A stretch of 64,000 bases of DNA, taken from Halorientalis sp. LT38. GTDB lineage: Archaea; Halobacteriota; Halobacteria; Halobacteriales; Haloarculaceae. The position numbers were made by a program, and so were the translations under genes. The notes beneath the pieces are model-generated. The model saw only the letters and a list, made by a program, of their open reading frames with translations. It was not told where the DNA came from and searched no databases. The first letter of the stretch is position 1. Every line of letters starts with the position of its first letter. Location: positions 1,798,001-1,862,000 of the forward strand of contig NZ_JAYEZN010000001.1 of the NCBI RefSeq assembly GCF_037031225.1, in the 5' to 3' direction. Positions 1,795-22,725 of this stretch are shown here, piece after piece.

Positions 1795-1985
1795 GAGTAC
1801 CTCGGATAGAGAGAGGGCGCCGACGGCGATAGTTATGAACCGGGGTCCGGTAGGGAGGGGTGCCTTACCGGATCGCAACCGACACGAAAGGGAGAGCGTC
1901 GCGTCAGCGTCAGGTCCCGCGGCCCCCGAACCTGTCGCCTCGTCTGCCACAGACGCTTTTGCTCGGGTCGGTCGAAAACGACCGC

Positions 1986-2762
1986 GTGGCGGTCGCACCC
2001 GATCCCGAGGAGATCTACGACCGGGCCGTCGACGAGGGGGAACGCCGGCTCGACCAGTCGCTGCTCGAACTGCTCGCGACGAGTTTCATCGCCGGCTTCA
2101 CGATCGTCTTCGGAACCGTCGCACTCGCCATCGTCCACGCCGCCGTGCCCGACGGATTCGGCCGCCTCGACGCCGTCGCCGGGGCGCTCGCGTTCGGCCT
2201 CGGCGTCGTCTTCCTCGTCGTCGGCCGCGCCGAACTGTTCAACGAGAACTTCTTCGACCCGATCGCCGCCGCCATCGAACGCGACGAGTTCCCCGTCGGT
2301 GAACTACTGCGCCTGTGGACCGTGACCTTCGCGCTGAACCTCGTCGGCGGCGGCCTGATGGTCGCCATCTTCTGGGTCGAGGGGACGCTCCCGGCCGGGA
2401 CCGAGCAGGCCCTGCGCTCGTTCGCCGAACACACTGCCAGCCGGTCGACGGTCGGGACGTTCACCAGTGCCATCGTCGGGGGTGCGCTCGTCGCCTTGCT
2501 CTCGCACTTCCTCGCCGCGGTCAACAGCGTGGGGAGTCGGATCTCGATGTCCTACGCCGTGGGTTTCCTGCTGGCGCTCGGTCCCTTCGAGCACGCCATC
2601 GTGACGATGCTGCACGCCTTCTTCGGCGTCCTCTACGGAGCCCCGATCGGCGTCGGCGAGTTCGCGGCGCTGACGGGTGTCATCACCGCCGGCAACGTCG
2701 TGGGCGGGATCGGTCTGGTCACACTCACCCACGTCGCCCAGGCGCTTGGCGCGCGGCGGTGA
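1986..2762 (+). CDS. formate/nitrite transporter (FNT) family channel
   Basis: A 258-residue integral membrane protein with six hydrophobic segments, the size of FNT channels that pass formate, nitrite or hydrosulfide as pentamers. Seen are the first half-helix region LLATSFIAGFTIVFGTVAL, the ELFNENFFDP loop (compare ELFTSN/ELCTGN in FocA-like proteins), and a second repeat-like segment HAIVTMLHAFFGVLYGAPI with the histidine expected in the pore. A GTG at 1986 is preferred: the frame upstream has no family similarity and an AT-rich box (cttttg, 1956-1961) lies about 27 bases before it, which fits a leaderless transcript. The open frame also has a GTG at 1860. Substrate unknown; formate would fit the formate dehydrogenase at 26 kb, but the genes are 23 kb apart. 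Confidence 0.82.
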   Translation: MAVAPDPEEIYDRAVDEGERRLDQSLLELLATSFIAGFTIVFGTVALAIVHAAVPDGFGRLDAVAGALAFGLGVVFLVVGRAELFNENFFDPIAAAIERDEFPVGELLRLWTVTFALNLVGGGLMVAIFWVEGTLPAGTEQALRSFAEHTASRSTVGTFTSAIVGGALVALLSHFLAAVNSVGSRISMSYAVGFLLALGPFEHAIVTMLHAFFGVLYGAPIGVGEFAALTGVITAGNVVGGIGLVTLTHVAQALGARR

Positions 2763-8886: not shown

Positions 8887-11800
8887 ATGTCGGACGAATC
8901 GGTGGGTGCGGGGGCTCCAGACGCGGGATGGCGGGCGGATGGAGCCCTCGCGGGCGCGCTGGCACGGACCGTCGAGGGAGCGTGTTTTCGACTCGATGCG
9001 GAGCGACGGCTCCGCGCTGTCACTGAGGAACTGGTCACGCTGACCGGTCGGTCGCGGGAGGAACTGCTCGGCGAACACGTCTCGGTCCTGTTCGAGCCGC
9101 CGGACGAGGCGCGACTGGAGATCGCCCTGCGTCGACTGGAGGCCGGCGAGGCGGTCGTGAAGTCGATCGCGGTGCGGATCACCGCTGACGGGGAGGCCAT
9201 CCCGTGTTCACTCAGGCTGGGGCGAGTCGATCCGAACGCCGAGTCGTCGGAGGTCGTCGGCGTGATCCGGACCCGGGCGACCCCCAAGACCGAGGACGGT
9301 TCGACCGACGAGCGCAGCGAGCAGGCCCGCCGACTCGAGCGGGAACGAGACCTCTTCGAGCAGGTGCTCGACGCCGCGCCGATCGACATCAAGGTCGTCG
9401 ACCGGGACGGCGAGGTGATTCGGACGAACGCGCAACGGGAGATCCGGGAGTTTGCGGACGTCACCGACTACGACATATACACCGTCGATGGCGAGCCGAT
9501 ACCCGTCGCGGAGCGGCCGTCTCGGCGGGTCTTCGAGACCGGCGAGCCGGTGTACGACGAGGAGGTGTGCGTCGACCGTCCCGACGGCGACCGCCGGTAC
9601 ATTTCGGTCTCCGCCGTCCCGCTGACCGACGACGACGGCGAGGTCGACCGGGCCGTCGTCACCGTCGAGGACGTCACGCATCTGAAAGCGCAGGCCCGCC
9701 GGCTCGAACGCCAGCGCGACGCCGTCGAGGCCGAGCTCGAGGGCGTGTACGACCGGGTCACGGACGCCTTCTTCGCGCTAGACTGCGAGTGGCGGTTCAC
9801 CCACGTCAACGACCGGACCGCGGAGGTGTTCGGCCGCCCGGCCGAGGAGATGATCGGCGAGCACATCTGGACGCGGTTCGACGAACTCGCCGGGACGGAC
9901 TTCCAGGCGGAGTACGAACGGGCCATGGAGACCCAGGAGCAGGTGAGCTTCGAGGCGTACTTCGAACCCCAGGAGGCGTGGTACGCGGTCGAGGCCTACC
10001 CGTCGGACTCGGGGCTGTCGGTCTACTTCAGGGACGTGACCGAGCGCAAAGAGCGCGAGCGGGCGCTGGCCGAGTCCCGGCGTCGATACCGGGGCCTGGT
10101 CGAGAACTTCCCCAACGGCGTGGTCACCCTGTTCGACGAGGAGATGCGCATCCTGGTCGCGGGCGGTGAGGGGTTCGCGGGCTACCCCTTCGAGGCCGAA
10201 GACATCGAGGGCGAGCGGCTCGAGGACGCCGCGCCGTCGGAACTCTACGAACAGGTCAACCCCCACTACGAGGCCGTACTCGACGGCGAGGAGCGGAGCT
10301 TCGAGGTGACGTTCGGGGAGCGGACGCTCCAGTTCCACTCTGTCCCGATCCGCGACGACGAGGGCCGGGTCACCGCGGGAATGGGGATGTCACAGGACGT
10401 CACCGAGCAGCACCGCCGGGAGCGGGAACTGCAGACGCGGGTCCGCCAGCAGTCGGCCGTCACGGGACTCGGCCAGCGAGCCCTCGAAGCGGACGACCTC
10501 GACGCCCTGTTCTCGACCGCCGTGTCGGCCATCGCGGCGACGCTCGACACCGACTCCTGCAAGGTGCTCGACCTGACGGCCGAGGGCGACGAGTTACTGT
10601 TGCGGGCCGGCGTCGGCTGGCGCGACGAGCTGGTCGGGCAGGCGACGGTGGGCACCGATCGCGACTCGCAGGCGGGGTACACGCTCCTGTCCAAGGAGCC
10701 GGTCGTCGTCCAGGACCTCACGACCGAGGACCGGTTCACGGGGCCGGAACTGCTCTCCTCACACGACGTCAGGAGCGGCGTGAGCGTCGTCATCGGCACG
10801 CCGCAGGACCCCTGGGGCGTGCTGGCCGCCCACGACAGCGAGGCCAGGGAGTTCAGCCGACAGGACGTCGAATTCGTCCAGGCGATGGCGAACATCCTCA
10901 CGACGGCCGTCGAGCGCATCGAACAGGAAGGGGAACTGCGCCGCCAGCGCGAACAGCTCGCGGCGCTGAACCGCCTGAACGAGATCAGCCGGGACATCAT
11001 CCGCGCGCTCCTCCAGCAGTCGACCCGCGAGGAGGTCGAACAGCTGGTCTGTGACCGCCTGGCCGACTCCGACTCCTACGCCTTCGCCTGGGTCGGCGCG
11101 CTGGACGAGCAGAGCGAAGAGGTGGTCGTCGAGACCGAGGCCGGCGTGACCGACTACCTCGACGACGCGACCATCAGGATCGACGACAGCGACGCGGCAC
11201 AGGGGCCGACGGGCAAGGCCTTCAAGACGGGCGAGTTCCAGGCCTCCCGGAACGTCCTGGAAGACCCCGACTACGCGCGGTGGCGCGACCGGGGCAAGGA
11301 GTACGGCTACCGCTCGTCAGCGGCCGTACCCATCAGCCACGAGAACACCATCTACGGCGTGTTGAACGTCTATACCGAGCGAGTCGACGCGTTCGACACC
11401 GAGGAGCGGGCAGTGCTCCGCGGCCTGGGCGAGGTGATGGGCCACGCCATCAACGCCATCGAGCGCGAGCGACTGCTGATGAGCGACGAGGTCACCGAAG
11501 TCGAGATCCGCCTCCAGTCGCTCTTCGATGACCTGGACATCGAGGCGGACGTCACGGGGTCGATCACCATCTCGGAGACGATTCCGACCGGCGACGGGGC
11601 CTACCTCGCCTACGGGACCGCGACCGAGGCCGCCCAGCCGGCGCTCGAAGCGCTCGTCGAGCGAGAGACGGACTGGGGCGACCTCACCTACCTCGAGAGT
11701 GACGCTGGCGACCGCCGGTTCGAGGTCGTCCTCGAGGACCCCCCGATCCTGCGGGTGCTGAGTTCCCACGGCGGCCACCTCGACCGGGTCCGGATCAGTG

Positions 11801-12159
11801 ACGGCGACGTGTTTCTGACCATGGAACTCCCGCCCGACGCGCCGGTCCGGGCGGTCGTCGACGGGGTGGAATCGGTGTACTCCGACGCGGAGATGCTGGC
11901 CCAGCGCCGGACGACCCACAGCGGACGGACGGGCGGCCGAGCCGGTTTCGACCTCGAAGCCCTCCTCACCGACCGACAGGCCGCCGCCGTGGAGGCGGCC
12001 TACCACGCCGGCTTCTTCGAGTGGCCCCGCGAGCGCACCGGCGAGGAGGTCGCGGCGTCACTGGGGATCGCACCGCCCACCTTCCACCAGCACCTCCGGA
12101 CCGCCCAGCGCCACGTCTTCGAGGCCCTGCTCGAGGACGACGAGCAGGACCAGCCCTGA
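8887..12159 (+). CDS. multi-PAS/GAF bacterio-opsin-activator-type regulator
   Basis: A 1090-residue cytoplasmic sensor-regulator of the haloarchaeal Bat type. In order: four PAS-like domains (about residues 20-130, 150-265, 285-390, 395-510; the second and third end in VTVEDVTHLKAQ and VYFRDVTERKER), a GAF domain about 520-670 (ending in VLAAHDSEAREFSRQDVEFV), a second GAF about 690-860 (SSAAVPISHENTIYGVLNVY), the bacterio-opsin activator domain about 870-1010, and an HTH_10 helix-turn-helix at the C terminus (GEEVAASLGIAPPTFHQHLRTAQ). No transmembrane segment or kinase domain is present, so signal sensing is coupled directly to DNA binding. The ATG at 8887 is placed by the PAS domain; the frame upstream is antisense or out-of-frame to the glycosylase gene. 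Target genes are unknown. Confidence 0.9.
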   Translation: MSDESVGAGAPDAGWRADGALAGALARTVEGACFRLDAERRLRAVTEELVTLTGRSREELLGEHVSVLFEPPDEARLEIALRRLEAGEAVVKSIAVRITADGEAIPCSLRLGRVDPNAESSEVVGVIRTRATPKTEDGSTDERSEQARRLERERDLFEQVLDAAPIDIKVVDRDGEVIRTNAQREIREFADVTDYDIYTVDGEPIPVAERPSRRVFETGEPVYDEEVCVDRPDGDRRYISVSAVPLTDDDGEVDRAVVTVEDVTHLKAQARRLERQRDAVEAELEGVYDRVTDAFFALDCEWRFTHVNDRTAEVFGRPAEEMIGEHIWTRFDELAGTDFQAEYERAMETQEQVSFEAYFEPQEAWYAVEAYPSDSGLSVYFRDVTERKERERALAESRRRYRGLVENFPNGVVTLFDEEMRILVAGGEGFAGYPFEAEDIEGERLEDAAPSELYEQVNPHYEAVLDGEERSFEVTFGERTLQFHSVPIRDDEGRVTAGMGMSQDVTEQHRRERELQTRVRQQSAVTGLGQRALEADDLDALFSTAVSAIAATLDTDSCKVLDLTAEGDELLLRAGVGWRDELVGQATVGTDRDSQAGYTLLSKEPVVVQDLTTEDRFTGPELLSSHDVRSGVSVVIGTPQDPWGVLAAHDSEAREFSRQDVEFVQAMANILTTAVERIEQEGELRRQREQLAALNRLNEISRDIIRALLQQSTREEVEQLVCDRLADSDSYAFAWVGALDEQSEEVVVETEAGVTDYLDDATIRIDDSDAAQGPTGKAFKTGEFQASRNVLEDPDYARWRDRGKEYGYRSSAAVPISHENTIYGVLNVYTERVDAFDTEERAVLRGLGEVMGHAINAIERERLLMSDEVTEVEIRLQSLFDDLDIEADVTGSITISETIPTGDGAYLAYGTATEAAQPALEALVERETDWGDLTYLESDAGDRRFEVVLEDPPILRVLSSHGGHLDRVRISDGDVFLTMELPPDAPVRAVVDGVESVYSDAEMLAQRRTTHSGRTGGRAGFDLEALLTDRQAAAVEAAYHAGFFEWPRERTGEEVAASLGIAPPTFHQHLRTAQRHVFEALLEDDEQDQP

Positions 12160-12165
12160 TCGACC

Positions 12166-13110
12166 TCAGGCGTCGGCGCGTTCGTCGAGTTCCACTCGGA
12201 GGGTCGCGAGCAGCGTCTCCAGGGTCGCCCCCTCCCGCTCGAACGCCCGGAGGCGGTCGGTCACCGCCGGATCCAGCGGCGGGCCCCGGAGCACGAAGGC
12301 GCCGCCGGTGGCGGTCGCCCGGAGGACCCAGCGCGCGACCGAGGCGACCGGGCCCCACCCGGCGTCGGCGAGCACGACGGCGATCCGCCACGCGTATTCG
12401 CGACCGCCCGTGATGGCCGCGAGCGAGAGCCGCTCGTCCAGGCGACCCAGCGCCACGTCGACGTCGGCGACGCCGGCCGCGTAGGTCTCCGCCAGGATCT
12501 CCTGCTGGACGTCGACCAGGCGAGCCAGCACCCCGTCGACGGCGCGGTGGTCGTCGCGTCTGGCAGCCCGGTCCGGGTCGATCCCCACGTCGGCGAGCGT
12601 CAGCGCCAGGTCGTAGTTGATGTGCGCGTTAATTCCCAGGAAGGCATCCTGGCTCGCCAGGGCGTCGCCCCGGAGCGCGGTCCCGAAGGCGACCCGCCAC
12701 GGGTCGGGGACGGCACCGACCTCGCCGCGCTCGAAGGCGAGGAAGGCCCGCCGGTAGTAGTTCGCGAACGTCGTCGTGTAGGTCCGCATCCACGCCGGGT
12801 CCGCGAAGTACCCGTCCGCGATCCGGGCGCGGATCCGTTCCGTCATGCGCGTGTAGACCGTGAGGAACACCGCCCGGCGGTCGCCGCGGTCGGCGAGACG
12901 CGCCTCCAGTTCACGCAGGCGCTCGGCCGCGTCCTCGACCGAGTCGTACGGCTCCCGGACGACCGACACGAGCGCCGGATCGGGCTCGGAGGGTGGCTCG
13001 AACTGGCGCACGTCCCGCCGGAGCGCGAGCGCCATCTCGCGGAGTCGGCGGGGAGTCAGGAGACGGGCGGCGTCGCCGGCGGCCGCGAGCGAGCGTACCG
13101 GGGTACTCAT
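12166..13110 (-). CDS. DUF5995-like conserved protein
   Basis: A 314-residue, mostly helical soluble protein that resembles the DUF5995 family, based on the conserved segment DAFLGINAHINYDLALTLAD and the overall helix pattern. The N-A-H-I-N-x-D core looks like a possible metal or substrate site, but no activity is known to me. The ATG at 13110 is preferred to the alternative at 13161 because the intervening residues are Arg/Pro-rich and look untranslated. It lies head-to-tail after a FAD monooxygenase gene (gap about 80 bases) on the same strand, and its end almost touches the Bat-type regulator. The neighbourhood with a terpene-synthase-like gene raises the possibility of a shared pathway; this is inference only. 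Confidence 0.72.
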   Translation of the reverse strand: MSTPVRSLAAAGDAARLLTPRRLREMALALRRDVRQFEPPSEPDPALVSVVREPYDSVEDAAERLRELEARLADRGDRRAVFLTVYTRMTERIRARIADGYFADPAWMRTYTTTFANYYRRAFLAFERGEVGAVPDPWRVAFGTALRGDALASQDAFLGINAHINYDLALTLADVGIDPDRAARRDDHRAVDGVLARLVDVQQEILAETYAAGVADVDVALGRLDERLSLAAITGGREYAWRIAVVLADAGWGPVASVARWVLRATATGGAFVLRGPPLDPAVTDRLRAFEREGATLETLLATLRVELDERADA

Positions 13111-13191
13111 CGGCGAACCATCACGGCGCCGAGAGATAGCTGTGGCGGGACGTCCCGGCACCGCGGGACGACGCCGTTTCCGCCCCGTGAT

Positions 13192-14541
13192 CTACCGCGA
13201 GAGGAACACGCGGCGGAGGATTCCGGGCCGTGCCAGCGTCGTGGGTGGCTCGTTCAGCATGAGGACGTTCGAGAGGTGGGTCGCGACGACGGGGTCCGTG
13301 TGCGCGGTCCGGATCAGCCGGGAGAGCAACGGGTTGACGAGCCGCGTCCCGAACGGTCTGTCACCCTCGGCCTGCGGGAACTGGAAGTCGGCGCCGACCG
13401 TCAGCCGCCAGACGGTGTCGACGAGGTCCCCCACGCCGTCGAAGAAGCGGGCGGCCAGGTCGTCGAGCCCGCCCGTCGCGAGGGCGTGGTGGAGGTGGAG
13501 ACTCTGCAGTGCGGCCACGGTCATCCCCTGCCCGTAGATCGGGTTGACACTGGCGACGCCGTCGCCGAGGACGACCAGCCCGTCCGGGAACCGGTCGAGC
13601 GCCTCGTACCGGCGGCGGCGGTTGGCGGGGAACGGGTACCGGTGTGCCGCCGCCTCGATCCAGGGGCGATCCGAGAGCACGGCCGCAATATCGGGAACCG
13701 GGAGGTCGGCCGCGTACGCCTCGAACTCGTCGGGATTGGTCGGCGGGTCGTCACCGTGGACGCCGATGAGCGTCACCGTCCAGCGGTCGTTCTCGACGGG
13801 GACGACCGTCGCTCCCCGGGTCCGCGGGTGCGAGGGCGGGACCAGGAATCCGCGGCGGTCGTCCGGCGGGCGCTCGACGGTGACGGTGGCGTAGCCCACG
13901 TCGACCAGGACCTCGCTGACCGGCGGGGGCGCGTAGCCGTGGTCGTCGAGCCAGTCGGGCGTTCGAGACGTGCGACCGGTCGCGTCGACGACCAGCTCGG
14001 CGTCCAGTTCGACCTTTTCGCCCGCGTGGGTCTCGGCCGCGACCCCCGTCACGCGCCGGCCGGCGTCGTCGGTGCGATAGTCGGTGACTCGGTGGCGATC
14101 CCGGAGAGTGATCGACGGTCGCTCGGCGACGTTGCGGCGCAGGACCGCCTCCAGCAGCGGCCGACTCGCACAGAGCAGCGACGGGGGCTCGTCGGGTGCG
14201 GTGACGAACCCGCCCTCGTCGTAGTAGGCGAGGTCGCGCCCGACGTCGACCTGGAGTCCACCGGCGTCCCGGACGTCGGCGGTCAGCCCCGGAAACAGGT
14301 CCTCGAGCGTGCGTTGGCCGGCCTCCAGCAACACGTGGACGTGATCGGCCTGGGGGACGTTCCGGCGGGCGACCGGTTCGGACGGGAGCGGGTCGCGCTC
14401 GACGACGACGACGCGCTCGAAGGCGTCGGCGAGGACGCGGGCCGCGATCAGCCCGGCGATGCTCCCGCCGACGACCACGGCCCGCTGGCCGACGGCGCCG
14501 GGGGCGTCGCCGTCGTACGGGGGCGTCGTCGCGAGCGTCAT
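13192..14541 (-). CDS. FAD-dependent monooxygenase/oxidoreductase
   Basis: A 449-residue flavoprotein of the aromatic-hydroxylase/geranylgeranyl-reductase fold. The N terminus has the dinucleotide-binding motif VVVGGSIAGLIAARVL followed by VVVVERD; the middle has ELVVDATGRTSRTP; the C-terminal FAD contact is LVVLGDGVASVNPIYGQGM. A VPQADHVHVLLEAG segment after the first strand is typical of a subgroup I know mainly from actinobacterial secondary metabolism. The Leu/Arg-rich C-terminal tail has no clear membrane helix. It is followed by the DUF5995-like gene on the same strand and lies 1.7 kb from a terpene-synthase-like gene. Substrate unknown; a lipid or terpenoid is plausible. Confidence 0.82.
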   Translation of the reverse strand: MTLATTPPYDGDAPGAVGQRAVVVGGSIAGLIAARVLADAFERVVVVERDPLPSEPVARRNVPQADHVHVLLEAGQRTLEDLFPGLTADVRDAGGLQVDVGRDLAYYDEGGFVTAPDEPPSLLCASRPLLEAVLRRNVAERPSITLRDRHRVTDYRTDDAGRRVTGVAAETHAGEKVELDAELVVDATGRTSRTPDWLDDHGYAPPPVSEVLVDVGYATVTVERPPDDRRGFLVPPSHPRTRGATVVPVENDRWTVTLIGVHGDDPPTNPDEFEAYAADLPVPDIAAVLSDRPWIEAAAHRYPFPANRRRRYEALDRFPDGLVVLGDGVASVNPIYGQGMTVAALQSLHLHHALATGGLDDLAARFFDGVGDLVDTVWRLTVGADFQFPQAEGDRPFGTRLVNPLLSRLIRTAHTDPVVATHLSNVLMLNEPPTTLARPGILRRVFLSR

Positions 14542-14580: not shown

Positions 14581-15999
14581 TCACTCCTCGCCGTCCGTGT
14601 GGATCTCGAAGCGTGCCCCGCCCTCGGGGCCCGACGTCACCGAGATCGCCCAGCCGTGCGTGTCGGCGACCTGCTCGACGATGGCCAGGCCGAGTCCGGT
14701 GCTGTCGCTCGCCGACGAGTGCCCGATCTCGAACACCTGGTCGCGCTCCTCGGGCGGGATCCCGGGCCCGTCGTCCGCGACGTAGAACCCGGTGCCGTCG
14801 TCGAGGTCGCCGATCCAGACCTGGGCCCCGTCACCGCCGTATTCGAGCGCGTTCAACAGCAGGTTCTCCAGGAGCGAGTGGAGCCGTTCCGCGTTCGCCT
14901 CGATGGTGAGATCCGTGTCGACGGTCAGTTCGGCGTTGCCCTGCTCGACGCTGTCCCAGCACTCGCTGGCGACCGCGGCCAGCGATATCGACTCGGTCTC
15001 CGCGGACATCCGCTCGTGTTTGGCGAACTCCATCAGCTTCTCTATCATCTCGTCGACGCGGTCGACGGCCCGCGTCGCGCCCTCGAGGTGTTCGCTGTCG
15101 AAGTTCTCTTCCATCAGTTCGAGGCGCGTGTTGATGATGTCGAGCTGGTTTTTGACGTCGTGAGACATGAAGCTCGTGATGTTCTCGAGGCGCGCTTTCT
15201 GCTCTGAGAGCTGCTCGTCCCGTTCTTTCCGCTCCGTGATGTCCCGGACGTTGACGAGGATGCCGTCGATGAGGCGGTCTTCGAGGAGGCTGTGGCCCCG
15301 CACCTCGACCCAGCGCCAGGTCCCGTCCGCGTGTTTCGAGCGGAACTCGATCGTGTGTTCCTCGTCGGGGTTCTGGACGACTTCGGTGACCTTCAGCATC
15401 GCCTCGTCGCGGTCCGCCGGATGCACGAGATCGTAGGCGACCTCGCCGACGAGTTCCTCCGGCTCGTAGCCCAGCACCCGCGTGACCGACGGGGAGATGT
15501 ACTCGACTTCCCCCTGGGTGTTGACGACCATCACGTAGTCCGAGGCGTGTTCGAGGATCGTGCTGTACCACTCGGTCTGCTCTTCGACGGCCTTCTCCGC
15601 CCGGAACTGCGCCACCGCGTTCTCGACCCGGTTGAGCAAGACGGTGTACTGGTCCGTGCCGCCGCCTTTCTGCAGGTAGTCGGTGACGCCCGCCGAGATC
15701 GCGTCGCTGGCGATCTCCTCGCTGCCGCGGCCGGTAAAGAGGATGAAAGGGAGGTCCGGCCAGTCCTCGCGGACCGCCTGGAGGAACTCGATGCCGTTGC
15801 GCCCGGGCATGTTGTAGTCGCTGACCACGCAGTCGAACTCCTCGGCGGCGAGCCGTTCGAGGCCCTCTTCGGCGTCCCGCGCGACCGTCACCGCAACGTC
15901 CTCCCCCAGGCGCCGCAGCTGCTCCGCCGTCAGATCCCCGAAGGCAGAGTCGTCGTCGACGTGGAGCACGCGGATCTCCCCAGCCGAAGTGGCCTCCAT
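14581..15999 (-). CDS. response regulator-PAS-histidine kinase hybrid
   Basis: A soluble 472-residue hybrid sensor kinase. In order: receiver domain (about 8-125) with the acidic pair in VLHVDDD and phosphoacceptor aspartate 61 in VVSDYNMPG; PAS domain (about 145-260) ending DITERKERD; dimerisation helix with phospho-accepting histidine 280 in FMSHDVKNQLD; and an ATPase domain with NLLLNALEYG, VADDGPGIPPEE and STGLGLAIV. The start is set at 15999: a TATA-like element sits 24-32 bases upstream of that ATG, whereas the in-frame ATG at 16026 overlaps the element itself. Receiver-first kinases of this kind are common in haloarchaea. It sits between the FAD enzyme and the terpene-synthase-like gene, so it might control them, but no direct link is seen. 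Confidence 0.9.
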   Translation of the reverse strand: MEATSAGEIRVLHVDDDSAFGDLTAEQLRRLGEDVAVTVARDAEEGLERLAAEEFDCVVSDYNMPGRNGIEFLQAVREDWPDLPFILFTGRGSEEIASDAISAGVTDYLQKGGGTDQYTVLLNRVENAVAQFRAEKAVEEQTEWYSTILEHASDYVMVVNTQGEVEYISPSVTRVLGYEPEELVGEVAYDLVHPADRDEAMLKVTEVVQNPDEEHTIEFRSKHADGTWRWVEVRGHSLLEDRLIDGILVNVRDITERKERDEQLSEQKARLENITSFMSHDVKNQLDIINTRLELMEENFDSEHLEGATRAVDRVDEMIEKLMEFAKHERMSAETESISLAAVASECWDSVEQGNAELTVDTDLTIEANAERLHSLLENLLLNALEYGGDGAQVWIGDLDDGTGFYVADDGPGIPPEERDQVFEIGHSSASDSTGLGLAIVEQVADTHGWAISVTSGPEGGARFEIHTDGEE

Positions 16000-16022
16000 C
16001 GTTCCCGACAGTACGTCCTGCG

Positions 16023-16031
16023 ACATTTATA
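16023..16031 (-). promoter_or_regulatory. TATA box of the receiver-PAS-kinase gene
   Basis: On the minus strand the sequence reads gggtataaatg, centred about 28 bases before the ATG at 15999. This is the normal archaeal TATA-to-transcription-start distance, so the transcript is probably leaderless and starts at 15999. The ATG at 16026 lies inside the box. Confidence 0.6.
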
Positions 16032-16190: not shown

Positions 16191-17186
16191 ATGTCTACTC
16201 GGGGACAACGCATCGTCGCGGATCTCCAGCGCGAGGACGTCACCGATCTACTGACCGAGATCGACGCCTACGAACTGCCGCCAGTCCTCGAGCAACTCGT
16301 CGAGGACTACCAGGAGCTGGAGTACTCGCGCCCGCCCTTCATGTGGAAGTGGGTCCACAAACTCGCCCCCAAGAACACGCTCCCCTGCGTGGACGACGAG
16401 CACGTCGACCTCGTCCCGACCGACAAGACGATCGCGATCCTCTTCGTCACGCTGATCGACGACATCCTCGAGAAAGGCGGTGATCGGGCGACCTTCCGAC
16501 GACTCGCGCAGATCCCGTCGGACGCGGAAGAAGACGACGCCGAGGGTGGCGACTCCGACTACGTGGCGTTCACCCGGCGCGTGTGGGACACCCTGCTCGA
16601 CCGAATCCAGCGCGGCCCGCATTACGATACCTACGAAGGCATTTTTAGATACGACGTCGAGCAGGCGATCAACGCGGTGGAGTACAGCGACTTCGTCATC
16701 CGGAACCCGGAGCTGGCGACCGTCGACGACCTCGTCCGCTACGAGTCCCACAACATGGTCATGTTCGCGTACGCCGACCTGGACCTGATGCACACCACGG
16801 GCGGGATCAGCGACGACTACGCGACGCTCCGGGAGGCCATCTGGGAGGCCCAGTTGATGGCGCGGATCGGCAACTGGCTCAGCACCTGGGAGCGCGAACT
16901 CGCCGAGGGGGATTACAGCTCCGGCGTCGTCGTGTACGCGCTCGAAAACGACGTCATCGACCCGGCCGACCTCGACGCACTGGAGGCAGGGGAGGTCACC
17001 GCCGACGCGCTCGCCGAGCGGATCCGGGCCGCCGACGTCGAGGCGGAGTTCTTCGACCGCTGGGATCACCACTACCGACTGCTGGAGCAGCGCAACGACG
17101 ACCTCGAGACCATGGACCTGACGCCGTTCGTCGAGGGGATGGAGGAAGTGCTGCGGTACCACATGGCGAGTACGGGCCTCAAGTGA
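16191..17186 (+). CDS. class I terpene synthase-like protein
   Basis: A 331-residue all-helical protein that shows, at canonical spacing, the hallmarks of class I terpene cyclases: an aspartate-rich D-D-x-x-E motif at residues 90-94 (LIDDILEKGGD), a pyrophosphate-sensor arginine at 183 in LVRYESHNM, an NSE-type triad N228/T232/E236 in IGNWLSTWERE (45 residues after the arginine), and a C-terminal Arg-Tyr pair at 322-323. These bind the Mg2+ ions and diphosphate of a prenyl substrate. Length also fits bacterial cyclases. The second position of the NSE motif is Trp instead of the usual Asp. It lacks the second DD motif expected of a chain-elongating prenyltransferase. Product unknown. The start is supported by a TATA-like box about 29 bases upstream. 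Confidence 0.72.
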   Translation: MSTRGQRIVADLQREDVTDLLTEIDAYELPPVLEQLVEDYQELEYSRPPFMWKWVHKLAPKNTLPCVDDEHVDLVPTDKTIAILFVTLIDDILEKGGDRATFRRLAQIPSDAEEDDAEGGDSDYVAFTRRVWDTLLDRIQRGPHYDTYEGIFRYDVEQAINAVEYSDFVIRNPELATVDDLVRYESHNMVMFAYADLDLMHTTGGISDDYATLREAIWEAQLMARIGNWLSTWERELAEGDYSSGVVVYALENDVIDPADLDALEAGEVTADALAERIRAADVEAEFFDRWDHHYRLLEQRNDDLETMDLTPFVEGMEEVLRYHMASTGLK

Positions 17187-17237: not shown

Positions 17238-17555
17238 TCAGGCGTCCTGTTCGTGGACCTGCTCCAGGACCGCCGACGCCGCGACGTCGACGACGCCCGC
17301 CGCCTCGAGCGTGTCGGCAAAGGCGTCACTCTCGTAGTACGCCAGGGCGTCCTCGAGGCGATCCGCGGCCACCTCCTGGAGGACGATCACCCGGTCCTCG
17401 TCGTCCACTGGTCGAAACGCTCGCGTGCCCAGCGAGCCGTGGGCCGCGCGTTCCGCGGCGTTTTCCTCGTGGTGGCGCTCCCAGCGGTCGTAGTCCTCGA
17501 TCTCGTGTTCCGCGTAGACGTATGGCACTGCCGGCGCTCCGTACGCCACGCTCAT
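17238..17555 (-). CDS. small ferredoxin-fold (dimeric alpha/beta-barrel-like) protein
   Basis: A 105-residue soluble protein. The beginning YVYAEHEIEDYDRWERHHEE, the middle strand DRVIVLQEV and the following helix LEDALAYYESDAFADTLEAAGV form the beta-alpha-beta pattern seen in dimeric alpha/beta-barrel proteins such as EthD/ABM-like or NIPSNAP-like families. The exact family is not recognised and no catalytic residue is evident. The ATG at 17555 is used; the longer open frame extending to 18485 runs antiparallel to real coding sequence of the permease in another frame. It is oriented with, and 44 bases downstream of, the permease gene. Confidence 0.68.
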   Translation of the reverse strand: MSVAYGAPAVPYVYAEHEIEDYDRWERHHEENAAERAAHGSLGTRAFRPVDDEDRVIVLQEVAADRLEDALAYYESDAFADTLEAAGVVDVAASAVLEQVHEQDA

Positions 17556-17599: not shown

Positions 17600-18985
17600 C
17601 TAGTGGTCGTGGCCCTCCATCACCATCGGATGGCCGGTCGCGTAGTCGTCCGGCTTCTCCGCGAAGGTCTCCTTGCAGGTCTGCGAGCAGAAGTAGTAGG
17701 TCTCGCCGTCGTGTGTCGCCGCTGGTTCGCTGTCGTCTGTCCGCATGCCACAGACGGGGTCGCGGTACTGGCCGGGCGCACCGAGTCCACGGCGGTACAC
17801 GTACAGGAGAAAGCCCGACAGCGCGAAGGCGAGGAGGTTGAGGTAGAACGTGTAGTTGAACTCGAAGTAGGTCTGTTCGGTCGCCGTCTCCCCGCCGGCC
17901 AGGTCCGGCACGATACCGAGAGCGTCGAACAGCAACTCCATGAGAAAGCCCGTAAAGGCCATCGTCACGAAGAAGACGCCGAGGATGTAGAGCATGATCT
18001 TCCAGCCGTAGTACTTCCGGTAGACGTTGAGAACGGGGACGGTGATGAGGTCGGCGTAGACGAAGGCGATGACGCCCGCGAAACTGACGCCACCGCCCCA
18101 GAGGGCGACGGCGAACGGGACGTTGCCCATACTGCCGACGAAGCTGACGACGGCGACGGCGACGCCCATGACCGCGTTCTCGGCGGTCACGAGCAGGCCG
18201 TCGCCCTGGAGGAACAGGGCGTTCCAGACCCACTGGGGGACGAAGACGATGACGAAGCCCGAGACGAGAAACCCCGCGACGACGTCCTTCCAGATCATCG
18301 ACCACTCCTTGCGGTACTGGTTGCCGATCTTGTACCAGCCACCCCACGACAGGAGTTCGTCGCGCCAGCCGCCGCGACTCGCGGTCACTTGCTCGTAGGT
18401 CTCCAGACAGCCCGCCGAGCAGAATTTCAGCGTCTCGCCACCGTCGGTCGTGAGCGTATATCCGTCTTTGCCCTCCATCCCGCACGTGGGGTCTTCGGAA
18501 ACGCCCGACTCACGGTCGCGCTCGGCGAGCGTCTCCCGGACTTCCGCGAACAGGGTCTCGGGGAGCGTGAGGTGGACGATGACGGCCATGACGGCGATGA
18601 GGACGAGGCCGCCGAGCAGTTCCGCGACGAGGAACTCCCAGCCCAGGAGAATGAGGATCATCAACCCGAGTTCGACGATGAGGTTCGTCGACGCGAACAT
18701 GAACGCGAGGAAATTCACCGCGTGTGCCCCCTTCTTGAACAGGCCCTTCCCGATGGCGACGGCCCCGAAACTACACCCGCTGCTGGCCGCCCCGAACGCG
18801 GTCGCTTTCGCGAGTCCGCGCAGGTCCCCATCGCCCAGGATCTTGCCCATTCGCTCCTTCGAGACGTAGACCTGGACGAGACTCGTGATCGCGAGGCCCA
18901 TGATGATCGCCCACGCTGCCGTCCAGAGGAAGCCGACACCGATGCGCAGGGCCTCGGTCACCCCCTCGAGTATCGTCGCCTGCAT
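17600..18985 (-). CDS. UPF0718/COG0701-type permease with two YHS metal-binding domains
   Basis: A 461-residue membrane protein. Two hydrophobic halves, each with several helices, flank a YHS domain (about residues 165-205, EDPTCGMEGKDG...FCSAGC), and a second YHS domain closes the protein (about 408-450, RDPVCGMRTDDS...FCSQTC). The first half carries the family motif ASSGCSFGAVAIGKGLFKKG, the second FVGSMGNVPFAVALWGGG. Similar permeases are thought to move metal or thiol-bound ions; YHS domains commonly bind copper or other metals. The ATG at 18985 fits the family start. It diverges from the SHOCT gene and lies near a metal ATPase operon, so metal handling is likely, but the transported species is not established. 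Confidence 0.82.
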   Translation of the reverse strand: MQATILEGVTEALRIGVGFLWTAAWAIIMGLAITSLVQVYVSKERMGKILGDGDLRGLAKATAFGAASSGCSFGAVAIGKGLFKKGAHAVNFLAFMFASTNLIVELGLMILILLGWEFLVAELLGGLVLIAVMAVIVHLTLPETLFAEVRETLAERDRESGVSEDPTCGMEGKDGYTLTTDGGETLKFCSAGCLETYEQVTASRGGWRDELLSWGGWYKIGNQYRKEWSMIWKDVVAGFLVSGFVIVFVPQWVWNALFLQGDGLLVTAENAVMGVAVAVVSFVGSMGNVPFAVALWGGGVSFAGVIAFVYADLITVPVLNVYRKYYGWKIMLYILGVFFVTMAFTGFLMELLFDALGIVPDLAGGETATEQTYFEFNYTFYLNLLAFALSGFLLYVYRRGLGAPGQYRDPVCGMRTDDSEPAATHDGETYYFCSQTCKETFAEKPDDYATGHPMVMEGHDH

Positions 18986-19161
18986 AGCCGTTATATCGTG
19001 TGGATCGGCTATTGCAGTTGCCCTTGCGATACGATTCCGGAGCGGAGTCTCGACTGTGGGTTCCAAAATCGAGCGCCCGTTTTCCAGAAGTTTCGAAGCC
19101 ACAATAGCATTGAACCGTGGCCACGTACGTGACAGTGGAGACGGACTCACGGAGGACTCAG

Positions 19162-19536
19162 ATGCAAGAAAACACAGACGACACGCGGTTGGTAACGATT
19201 CTCCTCGTCATCGTCGGTGCGTTCGTGATCGTCCCGATGTTCTTCATGGGCTTCGGGATGATGGGGGGCGGCCCGATGATGGGCGGGACGTGGAGCGGTC
19301 ATATGTGGGGCGACGGGACGATGCCGGGCTGGATGCTCGTCGTCGGGATCGTGATGCAGCTCCTGTTCCTCGTCGCCCTGCTCGGCGGTGGCTACCTCGT
19401 CTACAGGGCAGTGACTGGAAGCGGGAGCGAGTCGGACCGGGCGCTCGAAGAACTCCGGCTCGCGTACGCTCGCGGCGAGCTAACCGACGACGAATACGAG
19501 CAGCGACGGGAGGCGCTCCAACGCGACAGGGACTGA
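19162..19536 (+). CDS. membrane protein with Met/His-rich loop and SHOCT domain
   Basis: A 124-residue protein with two transmembrane helices (about 10-32 and 57-80) and a C-terminal SHOCT domain (ALEELRLAYARGELTDDEYEQRREAL). The loop between the helices is very rich in Met, Gly, His and Trp (FGMMGGGPMMGG, SGHMWGDGTM), the kind of sequence found in copper- or silver-binding proteins. SHOCT domains are short oligomerisation modules at the ends of small membrane proteins. The ATG at 19162 is preferred; an upstream in-frame start at 19117 gives a poor extension. It is read divergently from the YHS permease. Role in metal handling is inferred from context and composition. Confidence 0.75.
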   Translation: MQENTDDTRLVTILLVIVGAFVIVPMFFMGFGMMGGGPMMGGTWSGHMWGDGTMPGWMLVVGIVMQLLFLVALLGGGYLVYRAVTGSGSESDRALEELRLAYARGELTDDEYEQRREALQRDRD

Positions 19537-19637
19537 CGAGACGCTCGATCCGAGACACGGCAGCGGACTTCGAAGGGATCACCGGACGACCCAGCCAGCG
19601 CCCCGAGATACCGGTACAGCGGGCGAGCGGTTGCGCC

Positions 19638-20162
19638 CTAGGAGTCCCAGTGAGCGCGAACGAACGCCCGTCGCAGGACGGTCAGGAGCACGTACGTCTC
19701 GTACTTCTGGGACCGACAGTGCTCACAGGGCTGCATGTCCGCGACGATCTCCTCGATCGCGTCGTCGTACTCGCCCGTGAGCGTGGCGAGCGCGTCCGTG
19801 AGCTGGGGCTGGACGGCGTCGACCATCTCCTCGACGGCGGCGTCGGCCGAGTCCGGCAGCGAGTACGAGAGGACGATCGTGTTCGCGTGATAGTACTTCG
19901 TCGTCCCGCCGCGGCCCTCCTCGAAGCGGACGACGTCGACGAGGCCGGCGTCCCGTAACTCGTTGATGTGGTGGCGAACGGTGTTTTCGGTGCGGTCGAT
20001 ACCGCGGTCTGTGAGACGTTCGTGGACCTCCGACGCGGTCAGGGCCGCCTCGGACAGAATGTCGAGGATCATCGCCCGCATCGGTTCGTCGATGGCATCC
20101 GAAACCCGGGTGTCTCGGACCGCGATGTCGTCGAGGCGGTGATCGGTACCGGAGCTACCCAT
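19638..20162 (-). CDS. winged-helix transcriptional regulator, possibly metal-responsive
   Basis: A 174-residue cytoplasmic protein. Residues about 15-85 form an ArsR-like winged helix-turn-helix (MRAMILDILSEAALTASEVHERL, then TENTVRHHINELRDAGLVD and a wing FEEGRGGTTKYY). The C-terminal part is helical and holds a C-x2-C pair (PCEHCRSQKYE), a candidate metal or redox site. It is transcribed divergently from the HMA chaperone/P-type ATPase genes, the usual arrangement for a regulator controlling them. The ATG at 20162 opens the conserved part; the longer frame to 20600 overlaps the neighbouring chaperone gene. The inducing metal cannot be read from the sequence. Confidence 0.8.
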   Translation of the reverse strand: MGSSGTDHRLDDIAVRDTRVSDAIDEPMRAMILDILSEAALTASEVHERLTDRGIDRTENTVRHHINELRDAGLVDVVRFEEGRGGTTKYYHANTIVLSYSLPDSADAAVEEMVDAVQPQLTDALATLTGEYDDAIEEIVADMQPCEHCRSQKYETYVLLTVLRRAFVRAHWDS

Positions 20163-20360
20163 GCGATAACTGAGGGTGAGCACGCGGGAAAAGGTAGTGG
20201 GATGCGTGCGACGTGGGCCGCAATCGCGGAACCGAACCCGCGTGGCCCCGATAGCGAAAGCTCTAGACGACCCGTTTGACCGTTCCAACGCCCTATTCCG
20301 GTATTCAAACATATCATCTAAAAAATACTTATTCGGGTGCGGGCCGTATCTCGAACTGTA

Positions 20361-20576
20361 ATGAGCGAGACGACCCAGTTCCGCGTCCTCGACTTCGACT
20401 GCCCCACCTGTGCCAGCACGGTCGAACGCGCACTCTCGAACGTCGATGGCGTCCAGCACGTCGAGGTCCACTACACGACCGGCCGCGTCGAGATCGAGTT
20501 CGACGACGGCGTCGCGGACCCCGACGCCTTCGCACAGACGATCGAAAGCCAGGGGTACACGCCCCAGCCCGCCTGA
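20361..20576 (+). CDS. heavy-metal-associated (HMA) domain chaperone
   Basis: A 71-residue HMA-fold protein with the metal-binding motif C-P-T-C-A (residues 14-17 in LDFDCPTCASTVERALS), a second helix DPDAFAQTIESQGY and the expected strand order. Such proteins carry Cu(I), Zn or similar ions to P-type ATPases. The ATG at 20361 is 4 bases before the ATPase gene's own start region: the stop at 20576 and the ATPase ATG at 20581 make this a two-gene operon with tight coupling. An AT-rich stretch (aaaaaatacttattc, near 20320-20333) is the likely promoter. The usual glycine-methionine before the motif is absent (FDCPTC instead of GMTC), a variation of unclear meaning. Confidence 0.88.
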   Translation: MSETTQFRVLDFDCPTCASTVERALSNVDGVQHVEVHYTTGRVEIEFDDGVADPDAFAQTIESQGYTPQPA

Positions 20577-20580
20577 TACC

Positions 20581-22725
20581 ATGGATAGACAAGCGATCAC
20601 ACAGTACTACCGGAAACACCGGAAAGCCATCGTCACGGTAGCCAGCGGCCTCCTCTACGGCGGTGGCTGGAGCCTCGGCTCCCTCACGAGTTTCGACACG
20701 GCGGGCGCCGCCGTGCTCGTCCTCGCCACGATTATCGGCGGCTACGACATCGCAAAGACGGCCTACCACGAGGTCACCAACCGGACGCTCGGGATCAAGA
20801 CGCTGGTGACGCTGGCCGCCGTCGGCGCCGTCCTCATCGGGGAGTACTGGGAGGCCGCGGCGGTGGTCTTCCTGTTCAGTCTCGGGAGCTACCTCGAAGG
20901 CCGGACGATGCGGAAGACCCGAAAGTCCCTCCAGGAACTGCTGGAGTTGACGCCCGACACGGCGACGGTGCGCCGAGATGGGACGCTCCAGAAGGTCCCC
21001 GCACGCGAGGTCGAGGAGGGCGAGGTCGTCGTCGTCAAGCCGGGCGGGAAGATCCCGGTCGATGGGACCGTCGTCGACGGCGAGAGCGCCGTCGATCAGG
21101 CGCCGGTCACCGGCGAGAGCGCGCCCGTCCACAAGGCCGACGGCGACGAGGTCTACGCCGGGACGGTCAACCAGGAAGGGGCGCTGGAGATCCGGACGAC
21201 CGGGGCGGGGTCGGACACGACGCTCGAACGCATCATCCGCCGCGTCGAGGCGGCCCAGGAGGCCCAGTCGCCCACGGAGAGCCTCATCGACCGGTTCGCG
21301 AAGTACTACACGCCGGCCGTCGTCGCGCTGGCCGTCGGCGCGTTCGCGATTACGCAGAACGCGATCCTGTCGCTGACGCTGCTGGTGATCGGCTGTCCCG
21401 GCGCGCTGGTCATCGGGCCACCCGTCAGCATCGTCTCCGCCATCGGCAACGCCGCCCGGTCGGGCGTGCTGCTGAAGGGCGGCGACCACCTCGAACGCGC
21501 CGGCAAGATCGACCTCGTCGCCTTCGACAAGACCGGGACGCTCACGGCGGGTGAACCCACCGTCGCCGACGTCGAGGGGTTCGATACCGATGCGAGCGAG
21601 GTGCTCGCACTCGCGGCGACCGCAGAGAAGAAGAGTGAACACCACCTCGCGGCCGCCATCCTCGACGCGGCCCGCGACCGCCCGCCCGCTGCGACGGACG
21701 GTGGCGTCCCGGTCGCCCAGGCGGCCGACTCGGACGCCGGACGCCGGTCGATCCCCGACCCGGACGACTTCGACGTGATCGCCGGGAAGGGCGTCGTCGC
21801 CCACGTCGACGTCTCCGGCGACGCCGGAGGCTCCTTGGACGGATCCGACGGTGGCCACGAGGTCGTCGTCGGTAACCGCGCACTGCTCGACGACCGCGGC
21901 ATCGACGTCCCCGAGCGTGTCGCCGAGTACGTCCGGGAGCGCGAGGAGCGCGGCGAGACGGTCGTCCACGTCGCGCGGCGGGCGGTCGGAGCGACCAGTG
22001 GGAGCGAGACCGCCGAACGCGCGAACGGGGAGCGGGCGACCGACCATGTGGAGGTCGCCGACAGTGCGAGCGGCGACGCCGCGAGCAGGGAGCGACCCGT
22101 GAGCGGCGATTGGGACGTCGTCGGCGCGATCGCGGTGCGGGACGAACTCCGGGAGGCCGCGCCCCGCGTCGTCGCGGCGCTCCGGGACGCCGGCATCGAG
22201 ACGGTGATGCTCACCGGCGACAACGAGCGGACGGCCGCCGCGGTCGCCGACGAAGTGGGCAGGGAGGCCGGTGAAACCGGCCTCCGGAAACGTGGCGGCG
22301 CCGCCGCCACGCAATTCGACGAGTACCGCGCCGAACTGCTCCCCGAGGACAAGCAGTCCGCCATCGAGGCCTTTCAGGCCGACGGGCACGTCGTCGCGAT
22401 GGTCGGGGACGGCATCAACGACGCGCCCGCGCTGGCGACCGCCGACGTCGGCATCGCGATGGGGGCGGCGGGGACGGACACCGCCATCGAGACGGCGGAC
22501 GTGGCGCTGATGGCCGACGACCTCGAACGCATCCCGTACGCGGTCAAACTGAGCAAAGCGACTCGCTGGAACGTCCTCGAGAACGTCGGCCTCGCGGTGC
22601 TGACCGTGACCGTCCTCCTCGCGGGCGTGCTCACGAGCTACGTCACGCTCGCCGCCGGAATGCTGGTTCACGAGGCCAGCGTCCTCCTCGTCATCCTCAA
22701 CGGGATGCGACTGCGCCGCTACTGA
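20581..22725 (+). CDS. P1B-type metal-transporting ATPase with CPG motif
   Basis: A 714-residue P-type ATPase that should pump a transition-metal ion out of the cell. Standard parts are the actuator VTGES (177-181), phosphorylation site DKTGT (316-320), MLTGDN, and VGDGINDAP. Departures from the usual types: the membrane motif is C-P-G (272-274), not CPC, CPH or SPC; the nucleotide-domain HP motif reads SEHH (352-355); and the last helix has H697-E698-A699, recalling the HEG motif of cobalt/iron-type pumps. Two low-complexity Gly/Ala/Asp insertions interrupt the nucleotide domain. No N-terminal HMA domain; the separate upstream HMA protein may serve instead. Metal specificity is therefore open (Zn, Cd, Co, Fe or Cu). 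Confidence 0.9.
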   Translation: MDRQAITQYYRKHRKAIVTVASGLLYGGGWSLGSLTSFDTAGAAVLVLATIIGGYDIAKTAYHEVTNRTLGIKTLVTLAAVGAVLIGEYWEAAAVVFLFSLGSYLEGRTMRKTRKSLQELLELTPDTATVRRDGTLQKVPAREVEEGEVVVVKPGGKIPVDGTVVDGESAVDQAPVTGESAPVHKADGDEVYAGTVNQEGALEIRTTGAGSDTTLERIIRRVEAAQEAQSPTESLIDRFAKYYTPAVVALAVGAFAITQNAILSLTLLVIGCPGALVIGPPVSIVSAIGNAARSGVLLKGGDHLERAGKIDLVAFDKTGTLTAGEPTVADVEGFDTDASEVLALAATAEKKSEHHLAAAILDAARDRPPAATDGGVPVAQAADSDAGRRSIPDPDDFDVIAGKGVVAHVDVSGDAGGSLDGSDGGHEVVVGNRALLDDRGIDVPERVAEYVREREERGETVVHVARRAVGATSGSETAERANGERATDHVEVADSASGDAASRERPVSGDWDVVGAIAVRDELREAAPRVVAALRDAGIETVMLTGDNERTAAAVADEVGREAGETGLRKRGGAAATQFDEYRAELLPEDKQSAIEAFQADGHVVAMVGDGINDAPALATADVGIAMGAAGTDTAIETADVALMADDLERIPYAVKLSKATRWNVLENVGLAVLTVTVLLAGVLTSYVTLAAGMLVHEASVLLVILNGMRLRRY

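Follow-up and report, generated by a model that had tools for sequence, protein, structure and literature searches.

The locus and its gene neighbourhood

The window, i.e. the whole stretch of 64,000 nucleotides of the Halorientalis sp. LT38 genome that was analysed, contains a gene that very probably codes for a class I terpene synthase. The features of this region are the following:

8887..12159, + strand: BAT-type PAS/GAF/HTH_10 regulator (Pfam BAT, GAF, PAS and HTH_10)
12166..13161, - strand: DUF5995 protein (PF19458, 4.3e-55)
13192..14541, - strand: FAD-dependent monooxygenase, candidate tailoring oxidase (PF01494, 6.8e-13)
14581..16026, - strand: response-regulator/PAS/histidine kinase protein, divergent from the synthase gene (Pfam Response_reg, PAS, HisKA and HATPase_c)
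16191..17186, + strand: very probable class I terpene synthase, PF19086-type, 331 residues, ATG start (Pfam, AlphaFold2, Foldseek, VIA-align)
16458..16472, + strand: Asp-rich metal motif D90-D91-x-x-E94 (DDILE), conserved in 114/114 sequences
16737..16739, + strand: R183, candidate diphosphate-sensor Arg, 45 residues ahead of N228, placed by spacing
16872..16898, + strand: NSE-type motif N228-W-x-x-T232-W-E-R235-E236, conserved in 114/114 sequences
17154..17159, + strand: R322-Y323, candidate RY pair, placed by spacing

The minus-strand genes form a run divergent from the synthase gene, with the kinase gene followed 39 bp on by the FAD monooxygenase gene and, after a further 30 bp, by the DUF5995 gene. 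Homologues of the kinase (47-51% identity) are encoded within three genes of the synthase in the loci L042, L043 and L079, and homologues of the FAD protein (47-56% identity) within two genes of it in L079, L042 and L094. According to the tree, L042, L043 and L079 carry the nearest kin of the window protein. The DUF5995 protein may also be part of the pathway. The BAT-type regulator family (c1) is found at most two genes from the synthase in many other haloarchaea and within five genes of it in 14 loci; in the window it is four genes away. The host genome harbours three polyprenyl synthase genes and four P450 genes, none of which adjoins the synthase gene. We count the three polyprenyl synthases in support of our assignment, as they could supply the substrate.

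The small ORF next to the synthase gene (17238-17555, - strand) matched no Pfam family. Scans for sigma-70 promoters and terminators found none, the sigma-70 models being unfit for archaeal promoters. To the right of the synthase gene, the region 17600-22725 codes for an ArsP_1-type permease with a YHS domain (Pfam), a regulator-like protein and, as judged by eye, a heavy-metal P-type ATPase. This region looks like a metal-efflux island.

Predicted fold and conserved motifs

Based on the letters and ORFs alone, an earlier note had proposed that the ORF at 16191-17186 codes for a class I terpene synthase-like protein, and the profile search, structure prediction, residue conservation and gene context all support this reading. 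A Pfam search matched residues 83-255 to PF19086 (Terpene_syn_C_2) with 26.0 bits (E 9e-6), above the gathering cut-off of 23.7 bits. A search of NCBIfam gave no meaningful match. Searches of the PDB sequences with phmmer and with a 12-row profile found no terpene synthase, because the protein is too divergent; a fold search nonetheless succeeded.

The AlphaFold2 model of the window protein, computed from 12 input sequences, has a pLDDT of 90.7 and a pTM of 0.89, and nearly all of its top Foldseek rows are class I terpene synthases. We re-assessed Foldseek's own matches with VIA-align, for which Z scores of 13 to 14 may reflect a mere helical arrangement. The scores were 20.7 for 5-epi-aristolochene synthase (rmsd 3.5, 272 residues aligned), 20.6 for LrdC and 19.8 for T-muurolol synthase. 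The same fold was predicted for L041, a distant relative from a CPR-type bacterial MAG with ~30% identity (pLDDT 89.3, Z 21.3 to LrdC). The earlier note had held that a confident fold other than that of isoprenoid synthases would speak against its proposal; with Z scores of ~20 to terpene synthases, the modelling confirmed the predicted alpha-helical class I terpene synthase fold.

The residues singled out in that note, namely DDILE at 90-94, R183, N228/T232/E236 and R322-Y323, are all present at those positions, and the distances of 138, 45 and 86 residues between them are correct. We determined their conservation in 114 sequences from haloarchaea, methanogens, another archaeal lineage and CPR-type bacterial MAGs, with one truncated or misaligned frame excluded. 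In the Asp-rich motif, residue 90 is Asp or Asn, residue 91 is Asp and residue 94 is Glu or Asp, and the second motif is complete throughout as N-x-x-x-T/S-x-x-x-E. D90, D91, N228, T232, R235 and E236 were invariant in 65/65 first-round family sequences; among the 115 aligned sequences, residue 235 is Arg in 112 and Lys in two. The sequence of the second motif in the window protein, N228-W-L-S-T232-W-E-R-E236, contains the three metal ligands of the NSE/DTE consensus (N,D)D(L,I,V)x(S,T)xxxE as given in PMC7192455, with Trp replacing the consensus Asp after the Asn. On the basis of profile, fold and conservation, we rejected a chance origin of the motifs.

The other two motifs are distributed differently. 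In the clade of the window protein (13 rows, support 99 in the tree), R183 is conserved in 12/13 proteins and RY in 13/13. Elsewhere Arg occupies position 183 in 22/95 proteins and position 322 in 11/95. In the alignment of 115 sequences, the respective counts are 35/115 and 25/115. In the AlphaFold2 model R183 is near the end of a predicted helix (178-184), before a break. In pentalenene synthase, whose sequence as used here matched PDB entry 1ps1 over all 337 residues, R173 is found 46 residues ahead of N219. When the family was compared with pentalenene synthase alone by hhalign, no meaningful alignment resulted, and the sensor Arg and the RY pair are therefore placed by motif spacing only.

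Thus, of the four motifs on which the earlier note built its argument, the two metal motifs hold family-wide, but R183 and RY are confined to the window protein's own clade and, as clade features, weigh less than that note had assumed. The window protein appears from its sequence to carry the complete canonical set, with R183 and RY as candidates. To judge from the alignment, most of the family must grip the diphosphate otherwise than via R183 and RY. Nearly all family members retain R47, K79, R214, R225 and R235.

Enzymes that share this fold and superfamily include prenyltransferases and prenyl diphosphate synthases, and prenyl synthases are present among the lower Foldseek rows. Nevertheless, the second motif is NxxxTxxxE rather than a second DDxxD, PF00348 gave no match at E<=1 in the Pfam search, and the best fold matches are terpene synthases. 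In addition, relatives in CPR-type MAGs adjoin a separate polyprenyl synthase. We consider such an activity very unlikely, and a trans-prenyl diphosphate synthase (PF00348) was rejected because of the second motif and the lack of a PF00348 match.

Distribution and gene context of the family

Relatives of the window protein are encoded in 46 of the 146 genomes searched of its family, the Haloarculaceae, and in 120 of the 391 searched of the class Halobacteria (~31%), representing 39 of 86 genera. Others are found in further genomes of the phylum. They include proteins of Halobellus, SHRA6, a Methanohalobium MAG, the unclassified archaeon Dive96 and a bacterial MAG, and three more genomes from the phylum of the latter also carry relatives. 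We assigned genomes to Methanosarcina and to CPR-type bacteria by inference from kinship and gene content. PF19086 matched eight of ten diverse relatives, only one of which passed the cut-off, and for this reason the relatives have remained un-annotated. All of six relatives encoded on plasmids are annotated as 'hypothetical protein'. Separately, a 188-residue frame at G000:C1:756813-757376 (L175:5813-6376) contains what is left of a second synthase (HIGNWKSAWERELAEDDYVTG) and lacks the Asp-rich motif; it is a degenerate paralogue.

Relatives often adjoin genes for sensors or oxygenases. In three CPR-type MAGs, genes for a polyprenyl synthase and/or a type 1 IPP isomerase are followed by the synthase gene and then by a gene for a membrane protein. 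The polyprenyl synthases match PF00348 in two MAGs (2e-59 and 1.8e-56), the isomerases score 184.9 and 157.3 bits with NF002995 (cut-off 127), and Pfam detected HisKA_7TM in two of the three membrane proteins. The divergent neighbour of the synthase gene in Methanohalobium codes for a TIGR00297/DUF92 membrane protein. In archaeon Dive96, a gene for a FIST-domain sensor (L162:7125-8405) overlaps that of the synthase by 4 bp.

Two haloarchaeal loci, L083 and L094, code for P450s that match best to the pentalenene oxygenase and albaflavenone monooxygenase models of NCBIfam, with scores below the cut-offs. Within 14 kb, L094 also harbours genes for a UbiA protein, two FAD oxidoreductases, a SnoaL protein, a class III aminotransferase and two methyltransferases, and is plausibly a biosynthetic cluster. 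A frame resembling epoxide hydrolases was noticed by eye only at ~1843-2740 (- strand) of L094:1-15001. Altogether, the gene context of the relatives supports an enzymatic role.

Proposed function and comparison with known terpene synthases

Based on these analyses, we are confident that 16191-17186 codes for a soluble, Mg2+-dependent class I terpene synthase, whose catalysis, substrate and product we infer. D90, D91 and E94 together with N228, T232 and E236 would hold three Mg2+ ions, which would bind the diphosphate of a prenyl diphosphate and pull it off. R235 would grip the diphosphate, helped in the window protein's own clade by R183 and R322/Y323. In the helical pocket, the carbocation would next be guided towards a terpene hydrocarbon or alcohol that is cyclic (or linear) and, most likely, C15 or C20. 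The neighbouring FAD monooxygenase may oxidise this product, and the divergent sensor kinase may control the pathway.

The recurrent sensor genes suggest a further role compatible with terpene synthesis, as part of it rather than as an exclusive rival. The adjoining sensors might perceive the product as a signal or ligand, with this deep-branching synthase family and various sensors (histidine kinases, BAT/HalOD1 and FilR1-type regulators, FIST proteins) forming a module common to archaea and CPR-type bacteria. We compared the immediate neighbours of the synthase at ~50 dereplicated haloarchaeal loci with control genes located about five genes away. PAS_4 was detected in 15/99 immediate neighbours vs 2/94 controls (Fisher p 0.0016). 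FilR1_middle occurs in 9/99 immediate neighbours; it is not among the 25 control families listed, and hence is present in at most one or two controls. We place no weight on the Fisher values for FilR1_middle and HATPase_c, as they presuppose control counts that this list does not establish. At 28 of 50 loci a gene at +-1 belongs to one of six regulator families, a count that is descriptive only, as the families were picked post hoc and the loci share common ancestry.

The recurring sensors differ in type between lineages, i.e. response-regulator/PAS/histidine kinase proteins, BAT/HalOD1 and FilR1-type regulators, HisKA_7TM proteins in CPR-type genomes, PAS kinases in methanogens and FIST proteins, and we retain a signalling role on this account. 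However, adjacency may reflect regulation of the pathway alone, loci of common ancestry are not independent samples, such regulators are abundant in haloarchaea generally, and close relatives of the Halobellus type have none of the listed sensor families beside the synthase. We thus regard terpenoid signalling as a tentative and rather improbable, though testable, extension of the terpene synthase assignment.

The linkage to sensor genes would also suit a catalytically dead terpene synthase-like protein working as an isoprenoid diphosphate-binding sensor subunit, as would the loss of R183 and RY from most of the family. We find this hard to reconcile with all six metal ligands being retained in 114/114 sequences from lineages that are very far apart and with the co-occurrence of polyprenyl synthase, IPP isomerase and P450 genes, and give it very little credence. 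An active class I terpene synthase remains our favoured interpretation.

Studies of terpene cyclisation have dealt with plants, fungi and bacteria. The view of the earlier note that archaeal terpene cyclases are hardly described is fair but not absolute, as the title of a preprint by Samusevich et al. (bioRxiv 10.1101/2024.01.29.577750, cited in PMC12797696) claims terpenoid biosynthesis in archaea. In PMC12797696, the reference given for archaea is to an Aeropyrum prenyltransferase. Our literature search for phrases denoting archaeal terpene synthases found none. According to PMC10105419 (2023), halocin and bacterioruberin were the only archaeal secondary metabolites to which a gene cluster had been assigned with confidence. 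The aspects that appear novel are how broad the family is, the lack of the sensor and RY residues in most members and the linkage to prenyl supply, oxygenases and sensors. As the family is present in ~31% of the haloarchaeal genomes searched, in methanogens and in CPR-type MAGs, mostly at or under the Pfam threshold, archaea probably produce terpenoids that few have searched for so far. The loci of the window, SHRA6 and Halobellus and the L094 cluster make this chemistry directly testable.

The synthases of L083 and L094 are encoded near P450s resembling pentalenene oxygenase and albaflavenone monooxygenase, as in the biosynthesis of pentalenene and albaflavenone in Streptomyces. Nevertheless, with ~206 bits vs curated cut-offs of 800 and 700 these P450s are relatives, not orthologues, and the window gene has no adjoining P450. 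With respect to the PF19086-type synthases of bacteria and fungi (pentalenene, epi-isozizaene, T-muurolol and aristolochene synthases, LrdC), structural alignments indicate only ~8-18% identity, most of the archaeal family is devoid of the conserved sensor Arg and RY, and N-W replaces N-D in the NSE motif. Yet the archaeal proteins are like them in their single alpha-domain predicted fold, their size, their motif spacing, their DDxx(E/D) motif and their NSE-type motif, in which a basic residue precedes the Glu.
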